A DNA stretch of 64,000 nt from Prolixibacteraceae bacterium (GTDB taxonomy: Bacteria > Bacteroidota > Bacteroidia > Bacteroidales > Prolixibacteraceae), in contig JAIBEY010000008.1 in assembly GCA_019459525.1 (NCBI GenBank), positions 25,526-89,525 of the forward strand, read 5' to 3'. The position numbers and the translations under genes were made by a program. The first letter of the stretch is position 1, and every line of letters begins with the position of its first letter. The notes under the pieces were generated by a model that saw nothing but the letters and a program-made list of their open reading frames with translations, had not been told where the DNA came from and made no database searches. This document shows, piece by piece, positions 3,978 through 61,144 of this stretch.

Positions 3978-4010
3978 AAAGTGCCAATTTATAAATTGGC
4001 ACTTTTTTAG
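3978..4010 (+). terminator. Rho-independent terminator-like palindrome after the PUL1 regulator
   Basis: AAAGTGCCAATTTATAAATTGGCACTTT perfect 28-nt palindrome followed by T run. Confidence 0.8.
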
Positions 4011-33239: not shown

Positions 33240-33271
33240 TAGATGAGCTTCGATATATCGAAGCTCATCTA
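33240..33271 (+). terminator. Perfect 32-nt palindrome between the DUF5000-like gene and GH92 (terminator-like)
   Basis: TAGATGAGCTTCGATATATCGAAGCTCATCTA. Confidence 0.6.
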
Positions 33272-36379: not shown

Positions 36380-37015
36380 GTGGGTACGAATAATGAAATA
36401 AAATTAAAGAAATTGCTGGATTTGCATGTTCAGGGAACTATAATGCTAGCTTCATGGCTTGATGCAAATGGATTCTCACATGAACTTCAGCAAAGGTACC
36501 GGAAAAGTGGCTGGCTTGAATCGGTTGAAGTTGGTGCATTCAAACGCCCAAATGAAGTTGTCGGTTGGCAAGGTGCACTTTATTCTGTGCAAGAACAAGC
36601 TAATCTGACTGTTCACATTGGTGGTCCAACGGCTTTATCCATGTTGGGATTTTCGCATTATATTCGCACCGGAGCCGAAACTGTTTATTTATTCTCTTTA
36701 TTGAATGCGAGATTGCCAGCATGGTTTAAACAATATTCATGGAATGAAGCAGTAAACCACGTCAAAACATCATTTCTTTCAGAAGAAATTGGGGTAGCTG
36801 AATATCAGGAAACTCAATTCCAGTTAATGATAGCATCAGCCGAGCGAGCAATATTCGAATGTCTTTATCTAACTCCGGAAAAGATAACAATCGAAACTAC
36901 TATACAAACCTCTAAGATTAGTTATAGCCTCTTACTTGCTAGGAAGAAAGCAGTTGTTTTAGTTGAAAATGTCATTTGTTTTGATATTGAAAATTCCTCC
37001 TTTCCTGAACTATGA
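36380..37015 (+). pseudogene. AbiEi-like antitoxin (type IV TA), C-terminally truncated and without an AbiEii partner
   Basis: NEIKLKKLLDLHVQGTIMLASWLDANGFSHELQQRYRKSGWLESVEVGAFKRPNEVVGWQGALYSVQEQANLTVHIGGPTALSMLGFSHYIRTGAETVYLFS; diverges after ERAIFECLYLTPE. Confidence 0.72.
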
Positions 37016-38142
37016 AATATTTCTTTTTAATAGCAGCTTTCAATGCCTTCTTTTTTGCTGTTTTACTTTTTCAAAAAAAACCGAAGGCGGTACACGATAA
37101 GATACTTATTTTCTGGTTAGCTTTTTTAGGCTTATATACAGGCGTATATGGCCTTTTTTCAAAAGAATTGTTCATGCGCTTTCCACTTTTGTCGGCCAGT
37201 TTTATTTCACTACTTTTATTACATGGCCCTTTTCTGTATTTCTATATTTCCTCCCTGATAGTTAACCCAAATAAATTTAGAACTAAAGATTTGCTCCATT
37301 TTACCCCATTTCTCCTGTTTAACCTTTATCTGATCATTGTATCTTATTTACCGAGAGTATTGGAGCGGATCAGTTTAAGCCATGTAGCAAGCGAACATGA
37401 ATCGCCCTTATTGTTTCAGCTGTTTTTAATGCTGGTTGTTTTATCGGGTCCTGTATATTTTGTGTTTTCAATCTGGCTATTTAAAGGCCTGGATATTCAA
37501 ATTTTTAATAATTTTTCAAGTGCTGAAAATATAAATCTCGACTGGCTTCGGAAGTTGGTTTACATATTTGGTTCTGTATGGACTTTATTGATGATTGTTG
37601 CTACCATCCACCACGTGTTCCATTTGTTTTCGTGGATTTTTTGCACTGATGGAATTTCGCTTTCATTGTCGATTTTTATCATCCTTATCGGTTATTATGG
37701 GTTAAAACAGAAAGAACTATTTTCATTTCCCGAAAAGGAATCTTTTATTCTGGAACAGAAACCTGAAAAGTATTCAGGCTCAAGGCTAAAAGAGTCTGAA
37801 GCCAGATTATATCTGGAGAAACTAAACCGTTTCATGGAAGAAGAAAAGCCTTACCTAAGTCCTGATTTGAATCTTCCACAATTGGCTAAAGAAGTAGATA
37901 TCCCATCACATTATTTATCACAGGTAATTAATGAGAATATTGGACTGAATTTCTTCGATTTTATTAACCGTCAACGGGTGGAAGACGTGAAATCCAAAAT
38001 ATCAGATCCACGATACAATAACTTTTCAATCCTGGGGATTGCCTTTGAATCCGGATTCAATTCCAAGTCGGCTTTTAATCGTGTTTTTAAAAATATTACC
38101 GGACTAACTCCCAGCGAATATAAGAAGTCCTGTTCGGTTTAG
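37012..38142 (+). CDS. Multi-TM membrane protein with C-terminal AraC-type HTH
   Basis: About 7 hydrophobic helices, then KPYLSPDLNLPQLAKEVDIPSHYLSQVINENIGLNFFDFINRQRVEDVKS...ESGFNSKSAFNRVFKNITGLTPSEYKK. Confidence 0.88.
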   Translation: MKYFFLIAAFNAFFFAVLLFQKKPKAVHDKILIFWLAFLGLYTGVYGLFSKELFMRFPLLSASFISLLLLHGPFLYFYISSLIVNPNKFRTKDLLHFTPFLLFNLYLIIVSYLPRVLERISLSHVASEHESPLLFQLFLMLVVLSGPVYFVFSIWLFKGLDIQIFNNFSSAENINLDWLRKLVYIFGSVWTLLMIVATIHHVFHLFSWIFCTDGISLSLSIFIILIGYYGLKQKELFSFPEKESFILEQKPEKYSGSRLKESEARLYLEKLNRFMEEEKPYLSPDLNLPQLAKEVDIPSHYLSQVINENIGLNFFDFINRQRVEDVKSKISDPRYNNFSILGIAFESGFNSKSAFNRVFKNITGLTPSEYKKSCSV

Positions 38143-38304
38143 ATTTCAGTAATTCCTTTCCCCTTTTACGTATTGTTTTATAAGCTGGGACCTCCTGATG
38201 CAATAAAATGAGTGCTACTTTAGAAAGTAGGTCGCACAGGTTATTTGCTACCCGTATTTTTGTTTCAGAAATAAATTTTTATTAATCATTTAAAAATCAA
38301 AAAA

Positions 38305-38943
38305 ATGAAAAACACAGAAAAAAATGTTGAGCAGAAAAACAGGGGAATAGAAAACACCATTAAGGTAGCAGGTACCTTTTTCCTTTTATTAATGTTAAGT
38401 GTATTCACGAGTATGCAGGCTTCGGCTCATTGCGATTCGTATGATGGCCCTGTTATTGAGGATGCTGTTAAGGCGCTTGAAACCAACAATGTCAATTTAG
38501 TTCTGAAATGGGTTACTACAGAACAGGAAAAGGAAATTATTCCGTTATTCAACAAAACCAATCAGCTTAAGAGTGGTGATAAAGAGGTTTACGCAATTGT
38601 TGAAAAACATTTCTTCGAAACTTTGGTTCGTTTGCATCGCGAAACAGAAGGCGCACCCTACACCGGGTTAAAACCTGCCGGAACCACAAAACAAATTATC
38701 CAAATGACTGATAAAGCCCTTAAAGAAGGAAATGTGGAGGATTTTTTGGTAAAATTAAATAGCCATATCGATAAGGGGGTTCGTGAAAAATATCAGAAGG
38801 TGTCGGAACTTAATAAAGTAAAAGATAATTCAACAGAACAAGGCCGGGAATTCGTGGAAGCCTATGTTGATTACACACATACTGTTGAAGCATTGCACGA
38901 TGTTATTGAACACGGCGGTGGACACGCAGGTCATAAGGAGTAA
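38305..38943 (+). CDS. DUF6448-like periplasmic protein
   Basis: ASAHCDSYDGPVIEDAVKALETNNVNLVLKWV...VEALHDVIEHGGGHAGHKE. Confidence 0.75.
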   Translation: MKNTEKNVEQKNRGIENTIKVAGTFFLLLMLSVFTSMQASAHCDSYDGPVIEDAVKALETNNVNLVLKWVTTEQEKEIIPLFNKTNQLKSGDKEVYAIVEKHFFETLVRLHRETEGAPYTGLKPAGTTKQIIQMTDKALKEGNVEDFLVKLNSHIDKGVREKYQKVSELNKVKDNSTEQGREFVEAYVDYTHTVEALHDVIEHGGGHAGHKE

Positions 38944-38991
38944 TATAATACAATCCTTTTGAAGTAGCTGAATCTCTTAGGAAACAGACAT

Positions 38992-39153
38992 TGTATGAGT
39001 CCATATTGCATATGCTCACATACAAAGCAGGCGATGAGGAAAGGAGCAAGCAAGGAAGAAATTATTGAAGTGATATGGATTGCTTCCGAAATGCGAGAAG
39101 TAGCAGCATCTGAACACGCTGCTATTGCTCTGGACGAAATGATATACTATTAA
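38992..39153 (+). pseudogene. Carboxymuconolactone decarboxylase (CMD) family fragment, C-terminal half only
   Basis: CMSPYCICSHTKQAMRKGASKEEIIEVIWIASEMREVAASEHAAIALDEMIYY* matches the C-terminus of the intact CMD protein at 53077-53415. Confidence 0.85.
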
Positions 39154-39157
39154 AATC

Positions 39158-39607
39158 ATGGAAGAAAGATTAAACTATTCAATGGTGGCTCCTGATGCCA
39201 TAAAAGCCATGTATGAACTCGAGAAATATGTACATGATTCGGGGCTCGAACGCTCGCTTTACGAGTTGGTGAAAACCAGGGCATCCCAAATAAACGGCTG
39301 TGCCTATTGCATCGACATGCACACAAAGGATGCCCGCAAGGCAGGCGAGACAGAACAACGTTTGTATGCCTTAAATGCCTGGCGGGAAACTCCATTTTAT
39401 ACTAAACGGGAGCGGGCTGCATTGGCTTGGACAGAAGCATTAACATTGATTTCTGAAAATGATGTGTCTGATTCATTATATGAATCTGCCCGGAAACATT
39501 TTGATGAAAAAGAAATGGTAGCGCTCACCATGGCTATAGTTGCTATTAACGGATGGAATCGTTTGGCAATTGGATTTCGTGCTGTTCCTGGCAGTTATGA
39601 ATCATAA
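39158..39607 (+). CDS. Carboxymuconolactone decarboxylase/AhpD-like family protein
   Basis: LVKTRASQINGCAYCIDMHTKDARKAGETEQRLYALNAWRETPFYTKRERAALAWTEALT. Confidence 0.93.
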   Translation: MEERLNYSMVAPDAIKAMYELEKYVHDSGLERSLYELVKTRASQINGCAYCIDMHTKDARKAGETEQRLYALNAWRETPFYTKRERAALAWTEALTLISENDVSDSLYESARKHFDEKEMVALTMAIVAINGWNRLAIGFRAVPGSYES

Positions 39608-39664
39608 TTAATATCAGTAGCAAAGGAATTGTCAGGGTTGTATCTATAAAAATTGCCTCCTTTT

Positions 39665-39704
39665 ATATTCTATAAAAAGACATCAAAGTCTTTTTATAGA
39701 ATAT
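39665..39704. promoter_or_regulatory. Operator-like palindrome upstream of the DUF2249 gene (could also terminate the upstream gene)
   Basis: ATATTCTATAAAAAGAC-ATCAAA-GTCTTTTTATAGAATAT, perfect 17-bp arms; core shared with 61117-61144. Confidence 0.65.
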
Positions 39705-39755
39705 TTTTATATATTTGAAGTATTAAAAGATTTAAAAACCTTTAAATATTAAATT

Positions 39756-39986
39756 ATGAAAACGTTAGATGCAACGAAAATTGAAGCTAGGTACAAACAC
39801 CCCACTATCTTTCAAGCCTACGAAGATTTGGCTGTAGGAGAATCTTTTATCCTTCATAACGACCATGATCCAAAACCGCTTTACTATCAGTTTACCGCTG
39901 AAAAAGGGAAAGAATTTGGTTGGGAATACCTTCAACAAGGTCCAGATGTGTGGGAGGTAAAAATCAGTAAAATGAAAGTTGAATAA
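39756..39986 (+). CDS. DUF2249 domain protein
   Basis: TIFQAYEDLAVGESFILHNDHDPKPLYYQFTAEKGKEFGWEYLQQGPDVWEVKISK. Confidence 0.88.
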   Translation: MKTLDATKIEARYKHPTIFQAYEDLAVGESFILHNDHDPKPLYYQFTAEKGKEFGWEYLQQGPDVWEVKISKMKVE

Positions 39987-40067
39987 AGTTTGTGGATTGG
40001 ATCAACTGGCGCTTGATCATTCAAATTTCATAATTTCTGAAACAATCCTAATGCATTAGTAAATCGT

Positions 40068-40544
40068 ATGACAACAAATTATTTGATATCGATTTTTATA
40101 CATGTGATTTGTGCAGCATTTTGGATAGGCGGTATGCTGTTTATCCCCCTTGTTTTAGTGCCAGGCATAAAAAATCAACCCAACCGTGTGTTGTTACTCC
40201 ATAAAACCGGAATTTAATTCCGGTTTTATGGTTGGCTTTCCGTTATAATCCTGATTATAACCGGATTTTTAAACATACATTTCAGGGGACTACCATTTAC
40301 AATTGAATTTTTCATGAACACAAGCTATGGAAAGTTACTAAGCATAAAATTGTCTCTTTTCGTAATAATGTTGCTGGTAGGTGGAATCCATGATTTTTAT
40401 ATTGGCATGAAATCGATTGTTGAAATGCAACAAACCTCTGGGAATAAGTTCAAAATGTTAGCGAGGTGGACCGGAATGCTCAATCTGCTGCTGGCCTTAA
40501 TTATTGCCTTTCTGGGCGTTGCGATATCGCGAGGCGGATTTTGA
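40068..40544 (+). pseudogene. CopD-like integral membrane protein interrupted by one in-frame TAA (40215-40217)
   Basis: MTTNYLISIFIHVICAAFWIGGMLFIPLVLVPGIKNQPNRVLLLHKTGI*FRFYGWLSVIILIITGFLNIHFRGLPFTIEFFMNTSYGKLLSIKLSLF...; frame intact on both sides of the stop. Confidence 0.8.
40199..40231. repeat. Perfect 33-nt palindrome (16-bp arms, 1-nt centre) inside the CopD-like gene
   Basis: CCATAAAACCGGAATT-T-AATTCCGGTTTTATGG. Confidence 0.97.
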
Positions 40545-40569
40545 AATTTTGATAACTAAATTCTGGAAA

Positions 40570-41385
40570 ATGAAAATTAACAGTCAAACAAAAATATCAG
40601 TTCTAATAAAAGATAACCCCAACACGATTGAGGCAATCGTTTCTGTCAACCCACATTTTAGCAAATTGAGAAATCCATTGCTCCGTGGAATATTAGCCTC
40701 AAGAACCAGTATTGGAGATGCTGCCCGAATCGGAAAATGTGATATCAAGGTTCTTTTTAAATCACTTGCTGATATAGGTTTCGAGATTGAAAAGGATGCG
40801 ATTTTGAAAGAAGAGGAAATAGCTCAACCAGCAAATTCTGAAATTTTAAACGCCATTAAATTATCAAAAGTCACCTCGTTGGATGTCAGGCCAACTTTGG
40901 AAAGAGGCGGAGATCCATTTAATGAAATAATGGGTGAATTAATGAGGCTCCAGGATGGATACACATTGGAAGTTATTAATACATTTGAACCAACGCCGCT
41001 GATTAAAATAGCGAATACCAGGGGTTATGCGAGTAGGATCGAAACAAAAGAAGATGCCGTTTACACTTATTTCTTTAAAGTGGCCGAAGCTAAAGAAGAA
41101 GCCCGCTCCAATAACCTGGTCTTCCGGGTTTCTGTGTCAGAGCATGAAGAAAGAAGGGCTAACTGCAACAAAGAAATTCATGAAATTGATGTTCGCGACT
41201 TAGAGATGCCATTACCCATGGTCACTATTTTAAAAGAGTTGGAAGAGTTGAAAGAAAACGAGGCTCTCTATGTACATCATAAAAAAGTGCCCCAATATTT
41301 ATTACCCGAATTGGCTGAACGGAATTTTAAAACCTGGATTGCCGAGGTGGACGAAAACAACGTTAAACTTTTAATTCATAAATAA
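40570..41385 (+). CDS. DUF1858/DUF2249 domain protein
   Basis: KISVLIKDNPNTIEAIVSVNPHFSKLRNPLLRGILASRTSIGDAARIGKCDIKVLF; LDVRPTLERGGDPFNEIMGELMRLQDGYTLEVINTFEPTPLIKI. Confidence 0.85.
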   Translation: MKINSQTKISVLIKDNPNTIEAIVSVNPHFSKLRNPLLRGILASRTSIGDAARIGKCDIKVLFKSLADIGFEIEKDAILKEEEIAQPANSEILNAIKLSKVTSLDVRPTLERGGDPFNEIMGELMRLQDGYTLEVINTFEPTPLIKIANTRGYASRIETKEDAVYTYFFKVAEAKEEARSNNLVFRVSVSEHEERRANCNKEIHEIDVRDLEMPLPMVTILKELEELKENEALYVHHKKVPQYLLPELAERNFKTWIAEVDENNVKLLIHK

Positions 41386-42663
41386 ATGAACCAGATAGCC
41401 AGCCAAAACGCGCCATCACCAAAGGTAGTTATTCCCCATTATGCTTTCGGGGGACTGACCTGGCTCGTGGTAACCCTGCTAATCGTATTTAATCCTGAAG
41501 CTTTCACACAACATTTTTTTAATCCTGAATTACTTGCCATAACCCACTTGTTGGTGTTGGGTTGGATTACCATGATTATTTTTGGAGCCTTGTACCAGTT
41601 GCTTCCGGTCATTATGGAAGTGAAATTATACAGCGAGCCATTTGCAATAGCTTCATTTATCTTGCTGGGCTTGGGTACTATTTTGCTGGCTTTCTCTTTC
41701 TGGCAATTTTCATTTGGTGCCATCATGTTTGTTGCGGCAACATGTGTTGTTGTGGCTGTTGGATTTTTTGTTGCCAATGTATTGTTTACTGCACATTCTT
41801 CCACTAAAAAAGTGATTGAAAGAACCTTCATCATTACTTCAGTAATATGGCTGTTATTCACGGTGTTGGCCGGTTTAGCCCTGGCCATTAACCAGGTTCA
41901 CCCGTTTTTGAAAACTTCGCAAATCGAACTTTTGAAACTGCATGCCCATGCCGGGATTGTTGGATGGTTTATTCAGTTGATTATTGGTGTCAGCAGTAAA
42001 TTGTTACCTATGTTTATGGTATCACACCATGTAAATACCAAAAAGTTAAATGTTGCTTATTACGCTATTAATATTGGGCTGATTGCAGGACTTTTGTCGT
42101 TGTTTCTACAGATAAAATTTGGTATCGTAATGAGTGCGATCATCATAGTGTCAGGTATTTTTAGTTACCTGTCATTTATTTATAAAGCCTATACAAAAAG
42201 GGTGAAAAAACAACTTGATATCGGGATGAAACAAACGGCCTTTTCCTTTTTGATACTGGTTATTCCTTTTTTCCTGATTTTCTCACTTTTGTTTAATTTC
42301 AAATTCCTGAACAGCCTCACGCTACCCCTTTCAGTGGCTTATGGAAGTGCAATTGTAATTGGGTTTATTACTTCACTTGTGATGGGGCAAACATACAAAA
42401 CATTGCCTTTTATTGTCTGGCTGAAAGTCTATCGAGGGCGGATTGGGAAAGTGGTATTGCCCTTACCGAAAGACCTTTATTTTGAAAAGATTGCCATTGC
42501 CCAGTTATGGCTTTTTGCTGCCGGTTTCGTTTTATTGCTTCTCGGAATTTCCACAACTATCGTTAATTTGTTGATTTTTAGCGGTATTGTTCTGTTTTTG
42601 TCGGCGGCACTCTATAACTTTAATCTATTCAAAATCATATTTCATAAACCAAAAAATAAATAG
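41386..42663 (+). CDS. Multi-TM heme-copper oxidase subunit I/NnrS-like membrane protein
   Basis: THLLVLGWITMIIFGALYQLLPVIM, LKLHAHAGIVGWFIQLIIGVSSKLLPMF; conserved His in TM context. Confidence 0.7.
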   Translation: MNQIASQNAPSPKVVIPHYAFGGLTWLVVTLLIVFNPEAFTQHFFNPELLAITHLLVLGWITMIIFGALYQLLPVIMEVKLYSEPFAIASFILLGLGTILLAFSFWQFSFGAIMFVAATCVVVAVGFFVANVLFTAHSSTKKVIERTFIITSVIWLLFTVLAGLALAINQVHPFLKTSQIELLKLHAHAGIVGWFIQLIIGVSSKLLPMFMVSHHVNTKKLNVAYYAINIGLIAGLLSLFLQIKFGIVMSAIIIVSGIFSYLSFIYKAYTKRVKKQLDIGMKQTAFSFLILVIPFFLIFSLLFNFKFLNSLTLPLSVAYGSAIVIGFITSLVMGQTYKTLPFIVWLKVYRGRIGKVVLPLPKDLYFEKIAIAQLWLFAAGFVLLLLGISTTIVNLLIFSGIVLFLSAALYNFNLFKIIFHKPKNK

Positions 42664-42670
42664 TTTCATT

Positions 42671-42979
42671 ATGAATACGGAGGAAAAAAATATTTTTGAA
42701 TTGCTCAAAGGAGTTGTTGATCCGGAATTAATGGTAAACATTATTGATCTGGGATTAATTTATGGCGTGACTTATAATGAGCCGGAGCATAAAATTGATA
42801 TAGATTTAACGCTTACCTCGCCCGGATGCCCGATGGGTGGCTTAATCATTGAAGATGCCCAACAGTTAATCGAATCCAGTTATCCCAATTTTGAAGTCAA
42901 TATTAATCTTGTTTGGGAACCAATGTGGTCGGTCGAAAATCTTACAGAGGCAGGTAAAGAAGCTTTAGGCCAGATATAA
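42671..42979 (+). CDS. Metal-sulfur cluster assembly factor (MIP18/DUF59 family)
   Basis: LLKGVVDPELMVNIIDLGLIYGVTYNEPEHKIDIDLTLTSPGCPMGGLI. Confidence 0.92.
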   Translation: MNTEEKNIFELLKGVVDPELMVNIIDLGLIYGVTYNEPEHKIDIDLTLTSPGCPMGGLIIEDAQQLIESSYPNFEVNINLVWEPMWSVENLTEAGKEALGQI

Positions 42980-42985
42980 GATGCT

Positions 42986-43681
42986 TCAGGCTGGCCGCTT
43001 TATAAATCCGCGCCTTACCAGTTGATAACCCGATCTGAAAAAATAAGCAACCGGCATTACAAACATGTGCATGAGTTTCGTGTAGGGGAAAATCATAAAA
43101 ATGAAAAGTCCCGTTACGATGTGCAATTTGTAAATAAGGCTGTGTCCTGCAATTACTACACCTGCATCTGGTTGAAAAGTAATAACCTTTTGCGCCCATT
43201 CACCTAAAGCGGCATAGTTTTCAACGGAAGATCCGGCAGAAATGGCTACAGAGATCAACCCCAGTCCCATTTCAAATAAAAGCAAAGCGATCAAGAGGAT
43301 ATCCGCAATTGAACTGTTTATTCTGATCCGTTGGTCCTTGAGTCGCCTGACGAGGAGTATCGTTATTCCGACCACGGCGGCGGTGCCAAAAACAGACCCC
43401 ATTATAACTGCCAATATCTTTTTTGTTGCAGTGGTCATAAACAGGTGATAGAAATGTTCAGGAGTAAAAAGGCCCATAAAGTGTCCGATAAAAACCAGGA
43501 TAATGCCATAATGAAACAAATTGCCTCCCCATCGCTGGCCTTTCTTCGAGAGAAACTGGCTCGATTCAGCTTGTAATGATTTTGATGTTTTTACTATTCG
43601 AGTGATAACACCAAACCAGAAAAGAGTCATGGCGATGTGTGGCAAATAGGTGAATAACAGGTTGTTGATATAATTATCCAT
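42986..43681 (-). CDS. narI: Respiratory nitrate reductase gamma subunit
   Basis: HIAMTLFWFGVITRI, FHYGIILVFIGHFMGLFTP, HIVTGLFIFMIFPYTKLMHMFVMPVAYFFRSGYQLVRR; operon context. Confidence 0.93.
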   Translation of the reverse strand: MDNYINNLLFTYLPHIAMTLFWFGVITRIVKTSKSLQAESSQFLSKKGQRWGGNLFHYGIILVFIGHFMGLFTPEHFYHLFMTTATKKILAVIMGSVFGTAAVVGITILLVRRLKDQRIRINSSIADILLIALLLFEMGLGLISVAISAGSSVENYAALGEWAQKVITFQPDAGVVIAGHSLIYKLHIVTGLFIFMIFPYTKLMHMFVMPVAYFFRSGYQLVRRGFIKRPA

Positions 43682-43686
43682 AATCG

Positions 43687-44316
43687 TTATGATTTACAAT
43701 TTAAACAAGCATTTTCGTCTCCGAATGTTACGGGCTCTTCTTCGTAAGCTTCATCAATACTGATTTCAGGCATTTCTATTTCCATTTTTTCAATCCGGGC
43801 TTCAGCGGGTTTGCGGCCAGATAATTGGATGATGGCAGATAAAAGATATTTATATGGATTGTCCTTATCTTCCAGCTTTTTGTGAATAAAGCCTACAATG
43901 TCAATAATCTCAGAAAGATAATCCATAGCCTTTGATTGCGCTTGCATGGCAAGGAATTCGAGAAATACAGGCAGATAATCAGGTAATTCCGGACGATTTA
44001 TATTTAATCCATTTTCATTGTAAAGATCGATCAGGTCAACCATGGCCTGACCGCGGTCTTTTGAATCGCCATGTACATGCTCAAACAGGTAAAGAGAAAC
44101 CGAGCGCGAATAATCGAACAGTTGAACATAGTGCTCTTGCCAGAATGTCAGTGGCTTTTTTGCAAAAAAGTCAACAAAAATTTCTATTCCAGAAATGGCT
44201 TCGGTGTTCAATAGATTCTCATCCTTAAGTGAAGCATTTACCTGAGGTAAAAAGTCATAAATTTCCTTGTTGGGATAGGTCATCAACAGCGAAATTATTT
44301 TATAAGTTTTCAGCAT
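43687..44316 (-). CDS. narJ: Nitrate reductase molybdenum cofactor assembly chaperone
   Basis: YKIISLLMTYPNKEIYDFLPQV, YVQLFDYSRSVSLYLFEHVHGDSKDRGQAMVDLIDLY, LPDYLPVFLEFLA. Confidence 0.93.
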   Translation of the reverse strand: MLKTYKIISLLMTYPNKEIYDFLPQVNASLKDENLLNTEAISGIEIFVDFFAKKPLTFWQEHYVQLFDYSRSVSLYLFEHVHGDSKDRGQAMVDLIDLYNENGLNINRPELPDYLPVFLEFLAMQAQSKAMDYLSEIIDIVGFIHKKLEDKDNPYKYLLSAIIQLSGRKPAEARIEKMEIEMPEISIDEAYEEEPVTFGDENACLNCKS

Positions 44317-44317
44317 T

Positions 44318-45808
44318 TTACATTCCTCCAAACAAGTTTTTCAAACGACTTTCCATGCTGCCGCAACCTTCGCCGTCGCTAAAGCCGCATCCGGCCTTAT
44401 CGCCAAAGGCATCAAAGGCATATTCCTTATGTGATACGGGAATTACAAAGCGGTCTTCGTAATCGGCAATGGCCATGTAGCGGTACATTTCTTCAACCAT
44501 TTCAGCCGTCAGGCCTGTACCTGACAATACCGCTTCATCTTCACTATTTTCAACAGTTTTACCCCTCATGAACGCACGCATGGCCAGCATCTTTACCAAG
44601 GCTTCCCTTACCGGCTTTTCATCGCCTGCAGTGAACATATTGGCCAGATACTTAACAGGGATACGCAGCATATCTACATCCGGAATAATGCCATTGAACC
44701 CGAGTTTCCCGCTTTCGACTTCTTCCTGAATGGGGGAGAGTGGGGGTGTGTACCAAACCATCGATAAAGTGCGATATTCGGGATGAAGCGGGAATGCCAC
44801 TTTCCATTCTACAGCCATTTTGTAAACAGGCGATTTTTGGGCGGCATCAATAAAATTATCTGGAATTCCCTGTTTGCGGGCTTCTGCTATAATTTCTGGA
44901 TTATTGGGATCAAGAAAAATATCGAGATGGGATTGATACAGATCAACCGGATTTTCGGATGATGCCGATTCCTTGATTTTTTCGGCATCGTAAAGCATTA
45001 CGCCGATATACCTGATTCTTCCCACGCAGGTTTCGCTACAGATAGTTGGTTCGCCGTTTTCAATCTTCGGATAACACAGCGTGCATTTCTCAGAACGTTT
45101 GGTTTTCCAGTTGAAATAGATTTTTTTGTATGGGCAGGCACTGACGCACTGGCGCCATCCCCGACAACGATCCTGGTCGATGAGCACAACGCCATCATCT
45201 TCGCGCTTGTAAATGGCACCTGAAGGGCAGGCCGCCACACAGGTCGGATTGAGGCAATGTTCGCACAGGCGCGGCAAATACATCATGAATGCGTTCTCGA
45301 ACTTGCTGTATATCTCTTTGTCAATATCATCAAAGTTCTTTTCTTTACTGCGTTCTTCAAATGCGCCCCCCAAATCGTCTTCCCAGTTTGGACCTTTCTC
45401 AATCTTCTCCATCGGAAGTCCGGTAATCATTGAATGTGGTCTGGCAGAAGGTGGGGTAACAAACTTTGCCGATGAATGTAAAATACTGTAGTTGAAGGTA
45501 AATGGTTCGTAATAGTCATCGATCTGAGGTAAGTACGGATTTGAAAAAATATTTTTCATGATACCTGCCTTATTCCCCATACGCGGACGAAGCTTCGATT
45601 TATCGAGTACCCAGCCACCCTTCCATTTATCCTGATTTTCCCAGTCGGTGGGATAACCTTGTCCTGGTTTAGTTTCAACATTATTAAACCAGGCATATTC
45701 CATCCCTTTGCGGGTTGTCCACACGTTTTTACAGGTAACCGAACAAGTATGACAGCCAATACATTTGTCGAGGTTTAATACCATTGCAATTTGAGCCTGT
45801 ATTTTCAT
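44318..45808 (-). CDS. narH: Respiratory nitrate reductase beta subunit
   Basis: CIGCHTCSVTCKNVWTTRKGMEYAWFNNVETKPGQGYPTDWEN; Fe-S motifs including CRGWRQCVSACPYKKIYFNWKTKRSEKCTLC. Confidence 0.98.
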   Translation of the reverse strand: MKIQAQIAMVLNLDKCIGCHTCSVTCKNVWTTRKGMEYAWFNNVETKPGQGYPTDWENQDKWKGGWVLDKSKLRPRMGNKAGIMKNIFSNPYLPQIDDYYEPFTFNYSILHSSAKFVTPPSARPHSMITGLPMEKIEKGPNWEDDLGGAFEERSKEKNFDDIDKEIYSKFENAFMMYLPRLCEHCLNPTCVAACPSGAIYKREDDGVVLIDQDRCRGWRQCVSACPYKKIYFNWKTKRSEKCTLCYPKIENGEPTICSETCVGRIRYIGVMLYDAEKIKESASSENPVDLYQSHLDIFLDPNNPEIIAEARKQGIPDNFIDAAQKSPVYKMAVEWKVAFPLHPEYRTLSMVWYTPPLSPIQEEVESGKLGFNGIIPDVDMLRIPVKYLANMFTAGDEKPVREALVKMLAMRAFMRGKTVENSEDEAVLSGTGLTAEMVEEMYRYMAIADYEDRFVIPVSHKEYAFDAFGDKAGCGFSDGEGCGSMESRLKNLFGGM

Positions 45809-45830
45809 AATCTGATGAGTATTAAACGTG

Positions 45831-48800
45831 TTAATGTTTCACTTCTTCGTCTTTCCATTCCACTTTCTTCAGTTTGCGAACCACTACAAACTCGTCACGG
45901 TTTGATCCGATAGTTCCGTAATAATTGAATCCATAAGACAACTGAGCATATCCGCCAATCATGTGTGTTGGCTTCAGACACAAGCGTTCCATGGAGTTAT
46001 GCACACCACCGCGATTACCCGTTAACTGACTAACCGGCATGTTTACAGTTCGTTCCTGGTTATGATACATGATCAGAGCACCGACAGGAATCCGCTGAGA
46101 TACAATCAGCCGGGCTACGGATGCTCCGTTGCTGTTAAAGACTTCAATCCAGTCATTGTCTTTAAGTCCAATGCTGGCGGCATCTGTTTCGCTCATCCAG
46201 GCTACCGGACCTCCCCGGCCAAGTGTGAGCATGACTAAATTGTCAGACCACGAAGAATGTATGGTCCATTTATTATGAGGTGTCATAATGTTTATGACCA
46301 TGTACTCGTCCTCCTTGTCCGCTTTACCTAGTACTTCAAGAATTGATTTGGTGTTGATAGGCGGTTTGTAAGTGACCATATTCTCACCAAAGGCAATCAT
46401 CCACGGATGATCCTGATAAAGGGTTTGCCGTCCGGTGAGTGTTCGCCACGGGATCAGTTCATGTACATTGGTATAACCGGCATTGTACGATACCTTTTCG
46501 GAATCGATGCCGCTCCATATAGGAGAAGTGATGATCTTTCGAGGTTGCGAAAGCAAGTCGCGGTAACGTATTTTTTCCTCCTCGCGGCCTAAAGCCAGAT
46601 GCGTGTGCTTGCGTCCTGTAATTGCTTCCAGTGCTTTCCAGGCTTTCATGGCAACCGCACCATTGGTCTCAGGAGCCAGAGAAAGAATAACCTCAGCAGC
46701 CTGAATGTCCGTTTCAATCTTCGGAAGACCTTTGGTTTCACCTTCTTCACTTTTGGTATTATTAAGGAGTGCAAGCAGGTCTATTTCGGCCTCTGTGTTC
46801 CAGTTAATTCCTTTACCGCCATTGCCCAGAGTCTTCATCAGTGGCCCAAGACTGGTGAACCGATTGTAAGTTTCCGGATAATTACGTTTCAGAGTGATTA
46901 TTTTTGAGAAGTTGATTCCGGGCTTTATTTCTAAATCCGAATTTTTCCAATCTTTTGCATCGGTAGTCTCCGATAATTCCATTGGTGAATCGTGTTGTAA
47001 CGGAAATAGCACGATGTCTGTTTCATTTTCCAGATGCCCTTTTGCCAAAATTGAAAATTTTTCTGCCAACCCTTTAAATATATCCCAATCTGTTCGGGAT
47101 TCCCATACAGGATCAACTGCCCGCGAAAATGGATGTATAAATGGATGCATGTCGCTGGTACTCAGATCGTTTTTTTCGTACCATGAAGCGGCCGGAAGCA
47201 AAATGTCTGAATGCAATCCGGTCGTTGACATTCTGAAATCGAGGGTTATCAGCAAATCAAGCTTTCCTTCCGGGGCATCGTCGTACCATTTGACTTCGGA
47301 AGGTAAAGTATGGCCAAGTTCTTTGAGGTCATTTCCCTGAATGCTATTTTGTGCTCCCAGCAAGTGCTTCATAAAATATTCCATTCCTTTCGCGCTTGAC
47401 CCCAACAGGTTCGATCTCCAAACAAAAAGGTTGCGCGGGAAGTTGGCTGGATTGTCGGGGTCTTCGGAAGCGATATTCAATTGGCCATTCTTTAGTTGCG
47501 AAACCACATATTCCTCTGAAGTCATGCCGGCAGCTTCGGCGTCTTTAGCTATGGTTAAGGGATTTTTGCTTAATTGAGGAGCACTGGGCAGCCAGCCCAT
47601 TCGTTCAGCGCGAACATTGCAATCGATGAGTGAAAGGCTTTCCCATTCAGATTTATCGGTAAGAGGAGAAAGCAATTCGTTTAGCTTCACTTTCTCATAC
47701 CTCCACTGATCCGTGTGCATATACATGAACGACGTGGTGTTCATGTGTCGAGGCGGACGGTTCCAGTCGAGGGCAAACGCCAATGGCAACCAACCTGTCT
47801 GAGGCCTGAGTTTTTCCTGGCCAACGTAATGAGACCAACCACCGCCTGACTGGCCGACACAACCACAAAATACCAGCATGTTGATTGCGCTCCGGTAAAT
47901 CATATCGGTATGATACCAGTGGTTAACTCCGGCCCCGATAATTATCATTGACTTTCCTTCGGTAGCCGCCGCATTCTCAGCAAATTGCCTGGCGGTAGAG
48001 ATGATGTGTTGAGCCGGGACTCCGGTGATTTTCTCTTGCCATTTTGGAGTAAAAGGCAGGTCCTCATCATAGCTTTTTGCTGAATTCGGATCATCAAAAC
48101 CCCTGTCAATTCCATAGTTGGTAACCATCAGGTCAAATACGGTGCAGGTATAAATTTCGCCCTGAATGGTTTTTATTTTCCTGACCGGTACTTTGCGTTC
48201 AATAATATCGCCATGCTCGGTCGCCGAAAAATGTTCGTGTTTAAAAGTAGTACCGCCAAAATATGGGAACTGTACATTTATCACTTCATCATGCTGTTCG
48301 ATCATAGAAAGTTTTGGCAAAATATCAGCGCCCGTTTTACAATCCTTTAGCTCTAAGTTCCACTTTTGTTTTTTCTCCCATCGCGATCCAATAGTTCCGT
48401 TTGGAACTACATAGTTTCCTGATATTTCATCTAATAAGACGGGCTTCCATTCCGGTTTTTCACCAGCTTCAAGGTTATTTTCAAGATCACTGGCCCGTAG
48501 AATAGTTCCGCCGAAATATTTCCCGTCTTTCTCCCCGATTTTTACAAGGAAAGGTAAATCTGAATATTGCCGGGCATATTTCTCAAAATAGGGTGTTTTT
48601 TTATCCAGATAAAACTCCTTCAGGATTACATGACCCATAGCCATGCCCAGAGCTGCATCTGTTCCCTGCCGGGGTTTCATCCACAAATCGGCAAACTTAA
48701 CGGCATCGCTGTAATCAGGGGCAATGACTACTGATTTTGTCCCTTTATAGCGCACCTGCGTATAGAAAGGTGAATCAGGTGTACGTGTGAGCGGAACATT

Positions 48801-49562
48801 TGAGCCCCATAACATCAGAAATGATGAGTTATACCAATCGGCACTTTCAGGTACATCGGTTTGCTCTCCCCATGTTTGTGGTGATGCCGGTGGCAGGTCG
48901 CAATAAAAATCATAGAAACTGAGCACTGTTCCTCCGATCAGGCTCAGGTAGCGCGTGCCTGCCGCATAGGATACCATTGACATGGCAGGAATAGGGGAGA
49001 ACCCTGCAAGTCGATCGGGACCATAAGTTTTTATTGTATAAATATTTGCCGCTGCAATGATTTCGTTTACCTCGTCCCATTCGGCGCGAATAAAACCTCC
49101 CAGTCCACGTGCTGCTTTATACTGCTTTGAAATTACCGGGTCGCTGACTACTGCTTCCCAGGCTTTTACCGGGTCGGAGAGGCGGGCTTTGGCTTCCTTA
49201 TATGCAGTTAGCAATTCTCCGCGGATCATTGGATACTTAACCCGGTTGGCGCTATAGAGATACCATGAATAACTTGCACCCCGAGGACAACCGCGCGGTT
49301 CGTGATTGGGCATTCCCGGCCGTGTACGTGGATAGTCGGTTTGTTGGGTCTCCCAGGTCACAAGCCCATTCTTAACAAATATTTTCCACGAGCAGGATCC
49401 TGTACAGTTAACCCCATGGGTAGAACGGACAACCTTATCGTGCTGCCAGCGGTTGCGGTACATACGCTCCCAATCGCGATTTTCACTTGTAATTGCGAGG
49501 TGTTTGTCTTTGGTTTTTTCTACTTCTTTGCTGAAATAAAAAAGTTTATTTAACAGGCTCAT
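45831..49562 (-). CDS. narG: Respiratory nitrate reductase alpha subunit
   Basis: STHGVNCTGSCSWKIFVKNGLVTWETQQTDYPRTRPGMPNHEPRGCPRGASYSWYLYSANRVKYPM; full-length 1243 aa. Confidence 0.98.
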   Translation of the reverse strand: MSLLNKLFYFSKEVEKTKDKHLAITSENRDWERMYRNRWQHDKVVRSTHGVNCTGSCSWKIFVKNGLVTWETQQTDYPRTRPGMPNHEPRGCPRGASYSWYLYSANRVKYPMIRGELLTAYKEAKARLSDPVKAWEAVVSDPVISKQYKAARGLGGFIRAEWDEVNEIIAAANIYTIKTYGPDRLAGFSPIPAMSMVSYAAGTRYLSLIGGTVLSFYDFYCDLPPASPQTWGEQTDVPESADWYNSSFLMLWGSNVPLTRTPDSPFYTQVRYKGTKSVVIAPDYSDAVKFADLWMKPRQGTDAALGMAMGHVILKEFYLDKKTPYFEKYARQYSDLPFLVKIGEKDGKYFGGTILRASDLENNLEAGEKPEWKPVLLDEISGNYVVPNGTIGSRWEKKQKWNLELKDCKTGADILPKLSMIEQHDEVINVQFPYFGGTTFKHEHFSATEHGDIIERKVPVRKIKTIQGEIYTCTVFDLMVTNYGIDRGFDDPNSAKSYDEDLPFTPKWQEKITGVPAQHIISTARQFAENAAATEGKSMIIIGAGVNHWYHTDMIYRSAINMLVFCGCVGQSGGGWSHYVGQEKLRPQTGWLPLAFALDWNRPPRHMNTTSFMYMHTDQWRYEKVKLNELLSPLTDKSEWESLSLIDCNVRAERMGWLPSAPQLSKNPLTIAKDAEAAGMTSEEYVVSQLKNGQLNIASEDPDNPANFPRNLFVWRSNLLGSSAKGMEYFMKHLLGAQNSIQGNDLKELGHTLPSEVKWYDDAPEGKLDLLITLDFRMSTTGLHSDILLPAASWYEKNDLSTSDMHPFIHPFSRAVDPVWESRTDWDIFKGLAEKFSILAKGHLENETDIVLFPLQHDSPMELSETTDAKDWKNSDLEIKPGINFSKIITLKRNYPETYNRFTSLGPLMKTLGNGGKGINWNTEAEIDLLALLNNTKSEEGETKGLPKIETDIQAAEVILSLAPETNGAVAMKAWKALEAITGRKHTHLALGREEEKIRYRDLLSQPRKIITSPIWSGIDSEKVSYNAGYTNVHELIPWRTLTGRQTLYQDHPWMIAFGENMVTYKPPINTKSILEVLGKADKEDEYMVINIMTPHNKWTIHSSWSDNLVMLTLGRGGPVAWMSETDAASIGLKDNDWIEVFNSNGASVARLIVSQRIPVGALIMYHNQERTVNMPVSQLTGNRGGVHNSMERLCLKPTHMIGGYAQLSYGFNYYGTIGSNRDEFVVVRKLKKVEWKDEEVKH

Positions 49563-49633
49563 GATGGTAGTTATAAATGAAATAATTATAAACCGAATCT
49601 TTGACCATACTAATGTACAAAAACCCTATCTGA

Positions 49634-50698
49634 CTACGAATGTATTTTTACAGGAATATAATCCCGGATGATTGCATAAAACATACCTATTGTACATATA
49701 CTCCATGTAACAAGTGCAACGTAAACAAAAACAGAGGGAATCTTCATCAAGAAAGGTAGGTCAAGCGCCTGCGAAAGTCTGTAAGTGCATACGGTGTACA
49801 TACCCAAAGGGAAGATCATTCCCCAGTATTGTGGATGATATTTAATAGGAAAATGTTTAAATATATGACGCCAGATACCTAAGATGACTATAAGCGGAAT
49901 CCACCAGGTACCTATTGCCCAGAAGAAGAGAGTGAATCCCTTTAAAAATGGAAGTATAGAGGTTAGAAAATTCATTTTGTAAGCATTTAAAATAAGCATC
50001 GATCCTGCCAGTGTTGATATGGCCACGGCTCCCATGTTAATCCAGTAAGGAGGAGCAAACTCTTCGGCTTTCATTTTGAAAAACGACATCCGATAAACAA
50101 TCAGTGTTATCACGATGATATAAAACATACAGCCACAAAGAAACATGACAAGTGAGAAAAAGAATACTTCTTCATACCCAAACGGCAGATGACCTGCCAG
50201 TTGGGTCCCCAAAATAGAAATTGATTGTGTGGATACAATGAATAACAGCCACACCCCGCTGATTGCATCGTTGATAGCAGGTTTTCCTCCATTGACGGTA
50301 ATAATAGTGAATATTAGATACATGAGAATGAACCAAGCAACGGTACCCGTATAATACAAAAGAGAAGCAATGTGCAGATTACCTGAGATCAGTACAAATT
50401 GGGTCCCGAGAACACAACTACCGGCTACAAAAGTAAGTAAACCCGGACCTTTTGCATGGTCACTGGTATCGGCCTTAAACTCTGTGAAATAGATGATTAT
50501 CCTCAATAAGTACATGATGCAAAGAAAAATGTAGGCCGCCATATTGAAGTAAAAGAGCAGCTTGGCAATGAGATGGAAACTAAATAGATGAGCAGCAATA
50601 GAAACAATACCCGTAGCCATTACAAGTGCGAAATATGCAATATGCATGTTCTTTAAGCCGGATAGAAATGTATTGGTAAAAGGCGTAGTTTTATTCAA
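49634..50698 (-). CDS. TDT/TehA/SLAC1-family membrane protein
   Basis: About 10 TM helices; [21 protein letters not shown]; ...[35 protein letters not shown]. Confidence 0.85.
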
Positions 50699-50741
50699 TT
50701 TGAAAAATTTGATTAAAAGTGGATGTATTGATTAACTGTGT

Positions 50742-51176
50742 TTATATCAACTTAAGATTTTTCAAAAGATCCATCTGATATTTTTCTTTGAGATCAGCAA
50801 ATGTTGTATTTGTGAGAGTCTCAATCATTTTTGAACGTGCTTCCATCCATGGTTCATGCATAATACATGGTTTATCAACAATACAGCAACTGAAGCCAAG
50901 AATACAGTTACATATTGCATCAATTCCTTCCAGTTTATTAATCACAAGGGCCAGATTTATTTCCTTCAACTCCTGGGCAAAAACAAAACCACCATTTCGT
51001 CCTGATGAACTTTTAAGAAATCCATGCTTCGATAAATCGGTTAACAAGCTTCTGAGATAGCGACGAGGAATATTTAATTGCTGGTGAAGGTATTCTGCAG
51101 AATACATATTATCATTCCGGGTTGCCATAAACCCGAGAACAGTAAGTGCATACTCTGTGGTTTTATTAAGAATCAT
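50742..51176 (-). CDS. Rrf2 family transcriptional regulator with Cys-rich putative Fe-S site
   Basis: NKTTEYALTVLGFMATR...LHQQLNIPRRYLRSLLTDLSKHGFLKSSSGRNGGFVFA; AICNCILGFSCCIVDKPCIMHEPW. Confidence 0.93.
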   Translation of the reverse strand: MILNKTTEYALTVLGFMATRNDNMYSAEYLHQQLNIPRRYLRSLLTDLSKHGFLKSSSGRNGGFVFAQELKEINLALVINKLEGIDAICNCILGFSCCIVDKPCIMHEPWMEARSKMIETLTNTTFADLKEKYQMDLLKNLKLI

Positions 51177-51540
51177 ATATTACTATCTTTTTATAGTATT
51201 TAATTCAAAGTTAAAAATAAAAAGGTATCGATGGATTTATTTAACCAATAAATTCAACCAATTCTAATAGCAGCTCTGCTTTCAGATCTCCAGTTGTAGC
51301 TTATTTAACGGATGGAAATAAATTATATTAAAGATATCTGCAATTGCGACATGCGAGTTATTCGCTATTCTATACTTATTATTTTCTTTTGCGATGCATC
51401 GAAGTTGCTTAAGCTACCTTTTTTATCATTTATCGATTGTCTAAGAAGAGGTCGGTAACGATTCTTTTTCACAACCAACCAAAAGAAATAGAACAAATTA
51501 TAGTTGGTAAGTATTTACTAATACAAGCAGGTGAGATTTC

Positions 51541-61116: not shown

Positions 61117-61144
61117 TATAAAAAGACATAGAGGTCTTTTTATA
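61117..61144. promoter_or_regulatory. Operator-like palindrome in the divergent ric/metE promoter region
   Basis: TATAAAAAGAC-ATAGAG-GTCTTTTTATA, perfect 11-bp arms; same core as 39665-39704. Confidence 0.65.

Follow-up and report, generated by a model that had tools for sequence, protein, structure and literature searches.

The stop codon that interrupts this CopD-family gene is probably a recent loss-of-function mutation, generated by a template switch that the surrounding palindrome drove, and is most likely a by-product of that process rather than an evolved switch. The window, meaning the whole 64,000-nt stretch of DNA analysed (G000:C58:25526-89525), belongs to a draft genome of 5.54 Mb in 116 contigs. 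The features on which the argument depends are as follows.

40068-40544, plus strand: CopD-family membrane protein gene of 158 codons, interrupted at codon 50 (Pfam PF05425)
40215-40217, plus strand: in-frame TAA at codon 50 (AAA, Lys, in G018, G012 and G016; AAG in G006)
40199-40231: perfect 33-nt palindrome with 16-bp arms and a 1-nt centre (sequence and comparison with relatives)
40215, plus strand: palindrome centre, T in G000 and A in G018 and other relatives, with T derived
39665-39704: intergenic hairpin with 17-bp arms and the 6-nt loop ATCAAA (comparison with G018 and G012)
37487-40940: tract of 3454 bp near-identical with G018 (alignment, 12 differing positions)

In the preliminary description, an in-frame TAA beginning with the centre T splits an otherwise intact gene, and this is confirmed. 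When the TAA is read as X, a single open frame of 158 residues runs from 40068 to 40544 and carries no second lesion. The read-through frame matches the Pfam CopD profile PF05425 with 41.4 bits, above the cut-off of 32.1. Its match to the NCBIfam copper homeostasis protein CopD equivalog NF033808 scores 63 bits, below the cut-off of 195, and spans only model positions 149-289 of 295. The stop leaves 49 of the 158 residues, from which we infer that function would be lost. A single base thus decides between stop and Lys, a genetic change at one locus such as the definition of phase-variable genes describes (PMC11868660).

The coordinates given earlier for the palindrome, its arms and its centre were all borne out on recheck. 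Its sequence, CCATAAAACCGGAATT-T-AATTCCGGTTTTATGG, forms a single-strand DNA hairpin of -15.7 kcal/mol (z -8.3), and at this base composition a window should contain only 5e-5 perfect palindromes whose arms are 16 or longer and whose centre is 0 or 1. Some quasi-palindromy is already present in the encoded peptide, HKTGIKFRFYG, for which random synonymous codons give about 10/16 pairs. The arms, paired at 16/16, go far beyond what the peptide needs (P = 6.5e-5 for such pairing, given the peptide and local codon usage). Two candidate identities for the palindrome were set aside. A repeated element is rejected because, among the 23 genus genomes searched, the 21-nt core is present only in G000, G018 and G013, at one copy per genome; no copies of the palindrome were found on viral contigs. 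A conserved functional DNA element is unsupported, since synonymous conservation within the palindrome is only mild (between G000 and G016, 2 of 11 codons are changed inside it versus 45 of 122) and the palindrome becomes degenerate in homologues beyond the family. The copy of the core in G013 (G013:C59:60775-60811) lies in an unrelated place, where a palindrome of AAAACCGGAATTTAATTCCGGTTTT with centre T precedes a run of T and, from its sequence, resembles a terminator. The window also holds two perfect spacerless palindromes outside long open frames, at 33240-33271 (32 nt) and 3978-4005 (28 nt), with arms so long that far fewer than one such palindrome would be expected in a window.

Reverse-complementing the whole palindrome alters the centre base alone, from T to A, as the preliminary description stated; this is formally true of an odd palindrome. 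Since an A/T exchange at such a centre is formally identical to inversion of the whole, the sequence alone cannot separate inversion from substitution. That distinction called for comparative data, which were collected. A search of 149 relatives gave matches in five same-genus genomes besides G000, of which the match in G004 is partial. The closest relative, the Prolixibacteraceae MAG G018 (contig JAQUIJ010000028.1), carries the identical palindrome (16/16 pairs) with centre A, and so an intact AAA codon for Lys. Beyond the centre, the 477-nt copD genes of the two genomes differ solely at 40098. Indeed, the alternative state that had been predicted, centre A with Lys, is present in a sister genome on an almost identical gene. 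The arms are unchanged and the centre is reverse-complemented, as in a spacer inversion, although one base is weaker evidence than a multi-base spacer would be.

The polarity of the change is likewise observed directly. G006, G012, G016 and the outer homologues have centre A or are otherwise open at codon 50, and a stop at this codon is absent from all other homologues compared, the near ones having Lys or Arg. The T is therefore derived in G000. Alignment of homologues, which had been proposed as a check on whether residue and palindrome are conserved together, supports the first and not the second: Lys or Arg is kept in the near homologues, and the perfect palindrome falls to 15/16 pairs in G006, G012 and G016 and to 2-13 pairs of 16 outside the family.

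Independent evidence comes from a second inverted repeat in the same tract. Between G000 and G018, the 12 differences across 37487-40940 comprise the palindrome centre, seven ordinary substitutions and four positions (39682, 39684, 39685 and 39687) that belong to one loop inversion. The loop of the hairpin at 39665-39704, at 39682-39687, reads ATCAAA in G000 and TTTGAT in G018, its exact reverse complement. In G012 the loop is ATCAAT, with a paired change in the arms. Because this is the G000 orientation, the hairpin loop flipped on the G018 side, whereas the palindrome centre flipped on the G000 side. The sequences thus indicate that inversion between the arms of inverted repeats happens in these genomes, here about 0.5 kb from the palindrome. 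The palindrome was chosen for its stop, so the hairpin, which formed no part of the original finding, is the only independent case, and a single one. A hairpin at 61117-61144, TATAAAAAGAC-ATAGAG-GTCTTTTTATA, has arms in common with it and falls inside a minus-strand open frame of 798 nt. The block at 36884-51228, which G018 (97.4%) and G012 (93.7%) also carry, has a mosaic structure in which near-identical tracts (37487-40940 and about 44100-46700) alternate with stretches diverged by 5-10% or more, a pattern that suggests repeated recombination.

A census of inverted repeats with spacers of 1-14 nt was taken over a 421-kb alignment of G018 with G012 (90.8% identity). In the class with arms of at least 14 bp, where raw counts are small (n = 11), there is one exact loop inversion, and two repeats are inversion-like, three otherwise changed and five unchanged; one of the two inversion-like cases is the window's own hairpin, and two cases are ambiguous. 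Repeats with arms of 9-13 bp in the same alignment show no loop inversion (0/48). The trend, on these few raw counts, fits template switching that depends on arm length. The exact case, at G018:C51:349591-349622, is a further inversion seen directly, in which a 4-nt loop changes from aaac to gttt relative to G012 between 14-bp arms, outside long open frames. A hairpin with 27-bp arms at G018:C51:200494-200550, covered by a 351-nt open frame, shows a possible, ambiguous single-base flip of its centre relative to G012; as an exact inversion (cga versus tca) it was rejected because an arm base also differs.

We hypothesize the following course of events. During replication or repair, the nascent strand would copy one arm and then switch to the complementary strand by way of the identical other arm, the centre would be copied as its reverse complement (A to T), and the strand would then switch back. 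With a 1-nt centre, exactly one base would change, turning AAA (Lys) into TAA (stop). The palindrome survives such an event, which makes reversal possible in principle. Routes through a cruciform or through recombination would yield the same product. The arms themselves were probably homogenised earlier by the same process, starting from the naturally quasi-palindromic protein motif. On the protein tree, the residue before KTG became His twice independently, in Prolixibacteraceae and in L018, and the outer arms CCATAAAACCGG/CCGGTTTTATGG are common to both His lineages; the combination of Tyr to His with near-perfect outer arms thus arose at least twice. If the left arm were overwritten with a copy of the right, both the His codon and the pairing would result, which makes homogenisation by template switching the simplest account. 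The earlier suggestion of inversion or template switching at the palindrome accordingly survives in part. Centre A in G018 and the neighbouring loop inversion speak for the event itself, and the idea that it switches the gene on and off is unsupported.

For the focal site considered alone, the one-base change is also compatible with an ordinary A-to-T transversion, a random mutation that struck a dispensable gene and fell at the palindrome centre by chance. Only one base differs, and unrelated lesions of copD in relatives fit such an account. G016 has a TAA at Tyr111, where inspection by eye found no similar palindrome evident. In G004 a deletion of about 245 bp begins directly behind the stop of the DUF2249 gene and ends 2 bp past the palindrome, and the position of that endpoint may mark another palindrome-associated event, as one case. 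G012 carries a second, diverged copy of window positions 40339-45000 (G012:C1:4766737-4771396) in which the CopD-like gene is represented by its 3' part alone. With these three lesions the gene looks dispensable in the genus, which also weakens any regulatory claim for the stop. Nevertheless, ordinary mutation is an unlikely explanation, since with 7 ordinary differences in 3454 bp a complementary change exactly at the centre is improbable, and the neighbouring long-armed repeat flipped outright.

Might the stop instead be one setting of a phase switch, in which the centre flips within the population, the CopD-like protein goes on and off, and both states are selected? The frame is otherwise intact, without a second lesion, and flips are reversible in principle. 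In addition, the flip rate can be placed crudely at about 430 times the per-site substitution level, with an interval of 11-2400 that reflects a single independent repeat. This figure assumes 8 substitutions in the tract and one flip per repeat, and the strict count of 7 raises it slightly. It overlaps the 100-10000 times basal rate given for simple-repeat phase variation (PMC11868660), and so crude an interval spans values from unremarkable through switch-like. However, the palindrome is imperfect or absent in other relatives, the OFF copy made by a centre flip is found in G000 only among the homologues compared, and the gene is irreversibly lost elsewhere, in G004. A profile search of contig C58 for recombinases of the PF00589 and PF00239 families gave no match. 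The phase switch put forward in the preliminary description is not supported by these observations, and we judge it quite improbable. Just as doubtful is a recombinase-free, one-nucleotide contingency locus, whose centre would flip hundreds-fold above ordinary mutation to toggle Lys and stop in natural populations. Most likely, the event is a mutational by-product rather than an evolved switch.

Hairpins as strong as this one can disturb library preparation and sequencing. A consensus or assembly error, by which the organism has A and the T stems from palindrome-confused reads or assembly or from mixed strains, would suit a draft of 116 contigs but is the least probable account and very improbable, given that the T path occurs in a de Bruijn graph of the A sequence alone for k up to 17, that at k of 19 or more, where an artefact is rejected, the graph is unbranched and lacks this path, and that the hairpin loop at 39682-39687 gives the same dependence on k.

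The template switching proposed for the palindrome has close counterparts in known systems. In coding DNA of Saccharomyces cerevisiae, template-switch spacer inversions occur only at arms over 9 bp and are reported to be recurrent and reversible (PMC8604942). As there, arms over 9 bp are unchanged between sisters, the spacer is reverse-complemented and the coding sequence is affected. The present case differs in lying in a bacterial gene, in having a 1-base spacer where 2-5 bases change in yeast, and in producing a stop where yeast shows amino-acid replacement; the reported recurrence is that of yeast. Loop inversion by template switching has also been described for rRNA and microRNA hairpins, bacterial rRNA included (PMC8794818). 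The hairpin at 39665-39704, with its loop inverted and its stem kept, resembles these, whereas the focal palindrome sits within protein-coding sequence and its centre is a single nucleotide. By analogy, the best reading of the focal event is that it would be of the same kind as the inversions in yeast genes (PMC8604942) and rRNA hairpins (PMC8794818).

In Escherichia coli, quasipalindrome-associated template switching makes an inverted repeat more perfect (PMC7202029). This fits the arm homogenisation proposed above, but the E. coli mutations alter the arms, whereas in the present palindrome these are perfect to begin with and it is the centre that is altered. Invertons are phase-variable inversions driven by invertases (PMC11892184, PMC11868660). 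The palindrome shares with them inverted repeats within the 10-40 nt range and an inversion that would alter whether a gene is expressed, and it differs in the absence of an invertase from contig C58 and of a multi-base segment between the repeats. No one-base spacer inversion in a bacterial coding sequence was found among the best-ranked open-licence literature.

The locus offers a compact natural case, from a bacterium known through metagenomes, in which a palindrome has apparently caused a mutation in itself and the effect on the coding sequence is plain. The case suggests that, within genes, perfect palindromes are reversible hotspots at which the next mutation is predictable from sequence. 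Should the crude flip rate hold, tools for finding invertible DNA overlook its smallest members, those with spacers of 1-6 nt, and nonsense mutations that look like single-base changes at the centre of a palindrome merit testing as inversions.

The genes around copD are the following.

39756-39986, plus strand: DUF2249 gene, upstream of copD (profile match; the G004 deletion joins its stop to copD)
40540-41385: DUF1858/DUF2249 fusion, downstream (profile match)
41386-42663, plus strand: COX1-like membrane protein, downstream (profile match), which we take to be NnrS-like
42986-43681, minus strand: nitrate reductase gamma subunit NarI, downstream (profile match)

The COX1 assignment of the third gene derives from the profile, and its NnrS label is presumed. 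The neighbours of copD from 40540 to 43681 form a context related to nitrate and NO.
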